Assembly: GCF_001447385.1 (NCBI RefSeq)
Contig: NZ_LLWQ01000193.1
Span: forward strand, 62,001 to 126,000
DNA: 64,000 nucleotides
Reading direction: 5' to 3'
Source: Paracoccus sp. MKU1
GTDB lineage: Bacteria > Pseudomonadota > Alphaproteobacteria > Rhodobacterales > Rhodobacteraceae
Positions 32,017 to 57,907 of the stretch are shown one piece after another (positions within the stretch are counted from its first letter, which is position 1; every line of letters starts with the position of its first letter). The notes beneath the pieces were generated by a model. The model worked only from the letters and a program-made list of their open reading frames with translations, made no database searches and was not told where the DNA came from. The position numbers and the translations under genes are program-made.

Positions 32017-32075
32017 ACGGTTCGGTCTGGATCGCGCAATCTTCCCGCAGAAAACCGGTCCTTGGCGAGAGAATT

Positions 32076-32154
32076 TTGCGATGCAGCATCATTTCCGGCC
32101 GCATTCCGCAAAAAGTTAGGAATTCTGGCGCCTTATGCACGCGCTGCATGGCAG
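32076..32154 (+). promoter_or_regulatory. two PhaR-type palindromes upstream of the DUF1127 gene
   Basis: A perfect CTGC-ATG-GCAG lies at 32144-32154 and a near-match TTGC-GAT-GCAG at 32076-32086. The form CTGC-N3-GCAG is the site I recall for PhaR, the polyhydroxybutyrate-sensing repressor of Paracoccus. The first site also sits inside a wider dyad TTTTGCG (32074-32080) with CGCAAAA. A few such 8-base matches are expected by chance in 64 kb, so this is a candidate only. Confidence 0.35.
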
Positions 32155-32254
32155 AGATGCCGGTTTGTCCGTGGTTTTCGTGAATTGCCCGGCCTATATG
32201 CTGATGCATCAACGAAGCGCCCGATAAGCGGGCAATGATCTCAAGGTGAAAACT

Positions 32255-32449
32255 ATGTCGGCGATTGACACGAACCGCATCCATAGCGGGGCGGGCTCTC
32301 TCGGTATTGGCTCGAAAATCTGGGCGGCCCTGTCCGCTTGGAACGATGCGCGCGTGACGAAGAACGCGCTGAGCCGTCTTTCGGATCGCGAGCTGGACGA
32401 TATCGGTCTGTGCCGCGGCGATATCGAACGGATTGCGCGCGCCCGCTAA
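32255..32449 (+). CDS. DUF1127 small protein
   Basis: A 64-residue protein. The C-terminal half, ALSRLSDRELDDIGLCRGDI then ERIARAR, is the DUF1127 (YjiS-like) motif. Family members of this size in Rhodobacter (CcaF1) bind RNA and affect sRNA maturation and RNA turnover, so an RNA-regulatory role is plausible here. I prefer ATG 32255 because AAGGTG at 32243-32248 is a ribosome site 6 nt upstream; a GTG at 32246 lies inside that site. A free-standing gene with its own 238-nt upstream region and an intrinsic terminator downstream. Confidence 0.85.
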   Translation: MSAIDTNRIHSGAGSLGIGSKIWAALSAWNDARVTKNALSRLSDRELDDIGLCRGDIERIARAR

Positions 32450-55863: not shown

Positions 55864-57564
<1,701 letters not shown>

Positions 57565-57582
57565 AAGCCGCTTACGCCGCCG

Positions 57583-57600
57583 CTGCAATGCAGCATTGCA
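57583..57600 (+). promoter_or_regulatory. perfect palindrome upstream of the DUF1127-like gene
   Basis: TGCAATGC-A-GCATTGCA (57584-57600) is a perfect 17-nt inverted repeat. Its left part, with the preceding C, contains CTGC-AAT-GCAG (57583-57593), the CTGC-N3-GCAG form linked to PhaR in Paracoccus. It lies in the 121-nt gap between ureC and the DUF1127-like gene, 86 nt before the latter's start. It could be an internal operator of the urease operon. Confidence 0.4.
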
Positions 57601-57685
57601 AAAGAAGCCATGGTGATGATCGCGAAACAGACCTACATTCGACGCCAGGGGAGGAAACCATTCGCCAAGACCGAAAGGGTTTCCC

Positions 57686-57907
57686 ATGGCTACCATCGCA
57701 ACCAACCGCTTCTCGCCCCGCCTGCCGGCGCTGTTCGACACTTTCCTCAAGTGGCTCTCGCGCGGGACCGAGGCCTATATCGAGAAGCATTCGCGCCGCG
57801 CCGAGATCGAGGCGCTGGAGGCGAAATCCGACGCCGAACTGGCCCGCATGGGCATCACCCGCGACCGGATCGTGCATTACGTCTTCAGCGACCGTTTCTA
57901 CATCTGA
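57686..57907 (+). CDS. DUF1127-like small protein inside the urease operon
   Basis: A 73-residue protein. The middle and end, AEIEALEAKSDAELARMGI then TRDRIVHYVFSDRFYI, resemble DUF1127/YjiS-type proteins (compare the LSDRELDDIGLCRGDI motif of the paralogue at 32255). It has no membrane segment. GAAAGGG lies 7 nt before the ATG. It is not a urease protein; its place between ureC and ureE is unusual. A separate promoter is possible, given the palindrome at 57584. An RNA-binding role is inferred from the family only. Confidence 0.75.
   Translation: MATIATNRFSPRLPALFDTFLKWLSRGTEAYIEKHSRRAEIEALEAKSDAELARMGITRDRIVHYVFSDRFYI

Follow-up and report, generated by a model that had tools for sequence, protein, structure and literature searches.

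A small DUF1127 gene of Paracoccus sp. MKU1 probably lies behind a two-operator promoter at about 32070-32206 of the 64,000-nucleotide stretch analysed here (the window), with a LysR-type activator acting at 32136-32160 and PhaR at 32071-32091. What the sequences show is the sites themselves, conserved between species, and a gene for each regulator; binding, activation by the LysR protein and any effect of PhaR are our interpretation. A sequence-only reading had reported a perfect CTGC-N3-GCAG site of the PhaR type (CTGCATGGCAG, 32144-32154) and a one-mismatch site (TTGCGATGCAG, 32076-32086) 68 nt apart before a small DUF1127 gene, and a second perfect site (CTGCAATGCAG, 57583-57593) before a DUF1127-like gene. 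We recovered all three at these positions, with the same spacing and with a gene downstream in each case: the first, opening with ATG at 32255, is a clear PF06568 member, and the second site precedes the gene at 57686-57907. The features discussed are as follows.

32071..32091, + strand: putative distal PhaR-type box (first in the window and third in 464 kb by the PhaR matrix, score 18.2; contains 32076-32086)
32136..32160, + strand: putative LysR-type (LsrB/VtlR-like) operator, TGC-N7-GCAT-N2-C-N-G-N3-TGC (invariant columns, matrix 30.6; contains 32144-32154)
32194..32199, + strand: predicted -10 hexamer CTATAT (position -61, aligned between species)
32219..32233, + strand: short conserved hairpin GCCCG/CGGGC in the predicted 5' leader (5 predicted pairs, 20 rows)
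32255..32449, + strand: DUF1127 gene, 64 aa (PF06568 58.7 bits, cut-off 23.3)
57578..57598, + strand: putative PhaR-type box 5' of the second gene (PhaR matrix 8.6, rank 4; contains 57583-57593)
57686..57907, + strand: second gene, 73 aa, DUF1127-like but divergent, 3' of ureC (profile-profile match; PF06568 matches of homologues)

Upstream regions were compared across 81 loci, namely the window and the best 80 of 258 DUF1127 relatives, drawn from Paracoccus and other Rhodobacterales, and relatedness among the species inflates the conservation counts across them. Among those best 80, and over 60 of its 64 residues, the protein encoded at 32255 is closest among named species to that of P. binzhouensis (98%), followed by P. 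denitrificans (94%) and P. versutus (93%). We take its gene to stand between an rsmE-like gene before it and a prmA-like gene after it on the other strand; both neighbours served as synteny marks in the comparison. The MKU1 genome holds four PF06568 matches, and the protein from 57686 is not one of them.

By count the motif is not enriched in the window, which has 2 perfect CTGC-N3-GCAG sites where shuffles average 3.68 (at least 2 in 86 of 100 shuffles) and 77 one-mismatch sites where they have 81. The genome-wide count that the sequence-only reading proposed as a check gave 202 sites in 5.39 Mb, or about 2.4 per 64 kb, and the bare count is uninformative. A backward-genome control (76 versus 202) was dropped as evidence of enrichment because it differs in composition. 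On the sequences compared, the signal beyond chance is the conservation between species of the sites, or of elements that overlap them.

The conserved element around 32144

A 22-row alignment of DUF1127 upstream regions contains an invariant TGC-N7-GCAT-N2-C-N-G-N3-TG, with a nearly invariant final C, about 110 bp 5' of the start codon. It also contains a hexamer resembling CTATAT and, within the leader, GCC..GGC. The core of the invariant element, GCAT-N2-C-N-G-N3-T, occurs at -100 to -120 in 55 of the 81 loci (window and best 80 of 258), that is, in 22/22 derivation rows and 33/59 held-out rows (chance expectation for the latter 0.005 per row), and in all 14 held-out rows with an adjoining rsmE. 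A matrix made from the 55 core loci finds a related box in the other 26, at -102 to -149 and with scores from -3.9 up to 28.2. Among 80 background windows none exceeds -0.4, a level that one locus (L040) does not pass. A matrix that leaves out the window and three near relatives gives 30.6 at position 32146 and no more than 14.1 anywhere else on either strand of 464 kb of MKU1 sequence.

At the best matrix site of each locus the dyad TGC-N7-GCA is present in 79/81, a count that is not independent since the matrix that picks the sites rewards this dyad, and it is followed by (A/T)TGC in 63/81. The full CTGC-N3-GCAG is found at only 9 of the same 81 sites (window and best 80 of 258) and its left half CTGC at 35; therefore, the conserved element around 32144 is not the PhaR palindrome. 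Purine occupies the third spacer base in 78 of the 81 proximal boxes, a position at which the PhaR boxes of phaP promoters carry a pyrimidine, and the ATG spacer of 32144 itself departs from the RNY spacer of PhaR operators. By a PhaR matrix the region ranks 12th in the window (position 32145, score 3.6). With a different dyad conserved, comparative evidence makes 32144, first read as the perfect PhaR site, more probably a VtlR/LsrB-type LysR operator. The dyad has the T-N11-A form of LysR operators, and its centre falls about 64 bp ahead of the point near 32206 where transcription is predicted to start. The two types of box share TGC/GCA half-sites, and the proximal region itself exceeds 8 by the PhaR matrix in 7 of the 81 loci (window and best 80 of 258), the window not among them; the two motifs are therefore alike and not cleanly separable everywhere, and in some species PhaR might touch the proximal box too.

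Published VtlR targets give a standard for this element. The Brucella VtlR motif is CAATGCAGCCATGCA (PMC12595884), with the reverse complement TGCATGGCTGCATTG, and GCAT-N3-TG-N3-T is the reported consensus for Brucella and Agrobacterium (PMC7486931); before abcR1 this box lies at -61 to -49, upstream of CTTGAC-N17-CTATAT (PMC8844928). Read by majority, the Paracoccus block is TGCATRGCNGCNTTGC, which fits the consensus at every fixed base but the T of TG, left free here. The window box carries six of the seven fixed bases, short of the full consensus, which occurs exactly within -125 to -85 at 12/81 loci (window and best 80 of 258). Its GCAT stands 48 bp before CTATAT and at -60 from the predicted start, which is the spacing of about 60 bp expected of such a box. 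Genome-wide, the LysR pattern is found at four places including the window (backward control 0); the other three were not called as targets, as no -10 at the right distance was seen in their flanks. The combined pattern GCAT..CTAT occurs at 22 places (backward control 2), four of which end in CTATAT, and two of these four are DUF1127 promoters, in the window and at the paralogue on C180.

The leader hairpin at 32219-32233 lies just before the ribosome-binding site and is kept in most of 20 aligned species; two of its five pairs have changes on both sides, with a covariation term of only -0.04.

A candidate for the LysR protein is encoded at C220:72252-73169. It is the best MKU1 match to a LysR protein encoded beside trxB (48%, the next MKU1 LysR reaching 31%), and its first 60 residues are identical at 51 positions to those of another trxB-adjacent LysR from an alphaproteobacterium. 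The trxB-adjacent set comprised 14 of 30 fetched alphaproteobacterial loci by one filter and 17 by a looser one. A match of the C220 type is present in 79 of 80 family genomes; by manual count, 74 of them have one that is nearly full-length and at least 57% identical. Published work describes a well-conserved vtlR-trxB adjacency within the class; no LysR gene was seen near MKU1 trxB, one side of which is occupied by an Lrp-like gene. The C220 gene (L156) lies instead near a gene resembling glutamate racemase. In a LysR tree that had no outgroup and included one MKU1 LysR, the C220 protein forms a long branch, which says little about membership. We use only the label LsrB-like, because of the missing trxB adjacency, the long branch in a tree without an outgroup, a comparison confined to trxB-adjacent proteins and a section heading that calls LsrB 'a LTTR unique to Rhizobiales' (PMC11975290).

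PhaR-type boxes at the DUF1127 genes

MKU1 has a phaR gene, adjoining a phasin gene and a long open reading frame in the place of phaC. The palindrome CTGC-N3-GCAG (CTGCNNNGCAG) was determined for R. sphaeroides PhaR, and P. denitrificans PhaR is reported to repress phasin expression and to bind PHB in vitro (PMC12542648). Phasin matches are present in 57 of 61 Paracoccus genomes, and 30 of these loci were taken for phaP promoters. Two boxes of the form ATGC-TGC-RNY-GCA-GCAT, 26-30 bp apart, were found in all 30. The symmetrised PhaR matrix was derived from 61 sites in these promoters, including one weak third site. In the window it ranks 32077 first (18.2) and 57584 fourth (8.6, tied with 17164), with 32145 at the twelfth place already given. 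Across 464 kb of MKU1 sequence, 14 sites score at least 8.6 and three, including 32077, at least 18.2. A first null made from 3067 windows, mostly coding, was superseded by dinucleotide shuffles.

The matrix also marks strong PhaR-type boxes elsewhere: a pair 21 bp apart on C64 (L254:11505 and 11526), between xylulokinase-like and AraC-type regulator-like genes, and a box scoring 19.1 on C220 (L245:18128), just before an ammonium transporter-like gene (genes named by eye).

The distal box has the core TGC-GAT-GCA, of the TGC-RNY-GCA form seen in phaP boxes; it begins TTGC instead of CTGC, so the outer C of the full CTGC-N3-GCAG is missing, and it stands single where phaP promoters have two. 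PhaR scores above 8 occur within -266 to -110 in 21 of the 81 DUF1127 regions (window and best 80 of 258), against a shuffle mean of 0.42, a maximum of 2 in 100 rounds and 2 in the backward control, and scores above 15 in 13 of the same 81 against a shuffle mean of 0.08 and 0 in the backward control; the other 60 have no distal box above 8. By genus, as given in record titles, boxes above 8 are found in 16/37 Paracoccus regions (shuffle mean 0.26) and 5/44 others (0.27). Their positions vary (-153, -155, -196, -200, -201, -244, -250 and -260), a spread that one inherited position does not explain, despite inflation of the counts by kinship.

At the second gene, the site core is CTGC-AAT-GCAGCATT, which conforms to TGC-RNY-GCA. 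The protein from 57686 itself has no PF06568 match. A profile of its family does match that of the DUF1127 family (probability 93.9, E 1.5e-7), and PF06568 is matched by 3 of 14 homologues (best E 4.2e-6), so calling the gene DUF1127-like was fair. Homologues occur in 28 of 61 Paracoccus genomes, and at 15 of the 28 a PhaR box above 8 stands 77-105 bp upstream of the extrapolated start; shuffles average 0.16 such loci, and the backward control has none. The gene ureC is beside nine of the 28, all nine of which have the box, and six further boxed loci (L215, L218, L231, L232, L235 and L236) have no ureC within their short flanks. The LysR-box score upstream of the 57686 gene is low (4.0).

Two further features of this part of the window were seen. 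The leader at 57645-57685 (GGGGAGGAAACC...GGGTTTCC) is strikingly alike between homologues and could form a stem. An Rfam scan gave 5_ureB_sRNA (56017-56304, - strand, 112 bits) as its sole match, antisense inside ureC, which may reflect conserved urease coding sequence alone.

The paralogue on C180 has all seven bases of GCAT-N3-TG-N3-T at -108 and CTATAT at -59. At this gene a PhaR score of 15.8 at -121 abuts the LysR core, and at C193:161558 a PhaR score of 11.0 at -118 overlaps a LysR-like box at -117, an ambiguous case; the LysR scores of the two (15.4 and 12.5) are no more than close to 14.1, the highest background score. The marginal PF06568 match on C196 has neither a PhaR nor a LysR box upstream (-12.2 and -12.7).

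Two-operator model and competing readings

In the two-operator model, the LsrB/VtlR-like protein from C220 would bind the proximal box. From there, about 64 bp ahead of the predicted start, it would activate a sigma70-type promoter whose -10 is good and whose -35 is poor. PhaR would bind the distal box and leave the DNA when PHB granules form, so that DUF1127 output would follow both the LysR signal and the carbon-storage state; the second gene (57686) has a PhaR box and no good LysR box. Repression would be the default guess from the known action of PhaR on phaP. At about 125 bp before the predicted transcript start, the distal box is a poor fit to plain blocking of the promoter; PhaR might act there by looping, by interfering with the LysR protein or by activating.

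Our main competitor holds that only the LysR operator functions, the distal box being idle or belonging to another TGC-binding regulator. The 60 of 81 loci (window and best 80 of 258) that lack a distal box, the single box far from the predicted start and the half-sites common to both motifs speak for it, but 21 boxed regions where shuffles average 0.42, together with boxes in 15 of 28 members of the 57686 family, where the LysR score is low, make it unlikely. We consider it less likely still that PhaR binds at both 32076 and 32144, with the block conserved as a variant of its operator. Although 32144 matches the R. sphaeroides motif perfectly and the proximal region passes 8 by the PhaR matrix at seven loci, the palindrome (9/81) and the third-spacer purine (78/81) speak against this, as do the score of 3.6 at rank 12 and the conserved TGC-N7-GCA. 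It is highly improbable that chance in a genome rich in GC accounts for all three sites: simple-pattern counts at or below chance and 202 sites genome-wide would agree with it, but conservation lies far above the shuffles, and the matrix rank of 32146 is unique in 464 kb.

We return to the two-operator model. The PhaR link to DUF1127 genes suggested by the sequence-only reading is supported by the sequence comparisons, with a LysR input added: it stands on the first-ranked site at 32076 and the boxes in 21/81 and 15/28 regions, and so mainly on sites other than 32144. Conservation upstream of orthologous DUF1127 genes, which that reading had made its test, was found for PhaR boxes at part of the loci in both families, and at few loci (9/81) for the 32144 palindrome.

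Implications and relation to known systems

More tentatively, and with slightly less than even confidence, small DUF1127 proteins of Rhodobacterales may be a node that reads PHB storage (via PhaR) and an LsrB-like LysR signal. On this reading, the control that these proteins exert would be reset by stored carbon, and the abutting boxes at C180 would suggest direct competition between PhaR and the activator. DUF1127 proteins have reported links with RNA binding (CcaF1) and with the kinase PhoR. A PhaR input, if true, would connect the PHB store with these small proteins. As the circuit from VtlR/LsrB to DUF1127 genes has been described in Rhizobiales, a related operator in Rhodobacterales would make it older and alphaproteobacterial. 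For binding or reporter work, 32071-32091, 32136-32160 and 57578-57598 are the exact candidate sites. We found no report of a PhaR/DUF1127/LysR arrangement in the literature searched, which lies mostly outside subscription journals, and one paper that names both PhaR and DUF1127 draws no link between them in its accessible parts.

The closest parallel is the VtlR/LsrB system. Brucella VtlR activates three DUF1127 genes and AbcR2 (PMC12595884), and Agrobacterium atu1667, an orthologue of two Brucella VtlR targets, is likewise VtlR-activated (PMC7486931). The MKU1 promoter resembles the systems of Brucella, Agrobacterium and Sinorhizobium in its DUF1127 target class, its type of box and the position of that box about 60 bp upstream, before CTATAT, and MKU1 has a LysR protein with a closely similar DNA-binding domain. 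It differs in the order (Rhodobacterales), the longer dyad TGC-N7-GCAT, a regulator gene away from trxB and the extra PhaR-type box.

Compared with phaP operators of PhaR, 32071-32091 shares the TGC-RNY-GCA core and a GCAT arm, and 57578-57598 shares GCTGC..GCAGCATT; the differences are the single box and a target that is a small DUF1127-type protein rather than a phasin. PhaR (AniA) of S. meliloti is reported to have a wider regulon that includes repression of the sRNA MmgR (PMC12542648), a precedent for PhaR acting on a post-transcriptional regulator, although the main text of the S. meliloti PhaR (AniA) paper, unlike the case here, does not contain the word DUF1127. CcaF1 of Rhodobacter sphaeroides, a small RNA-binding protein, is likewise a small DUF1127-associated protein in Rhodobacterales, a likeness that does not imply orthology with the protein from 32255.
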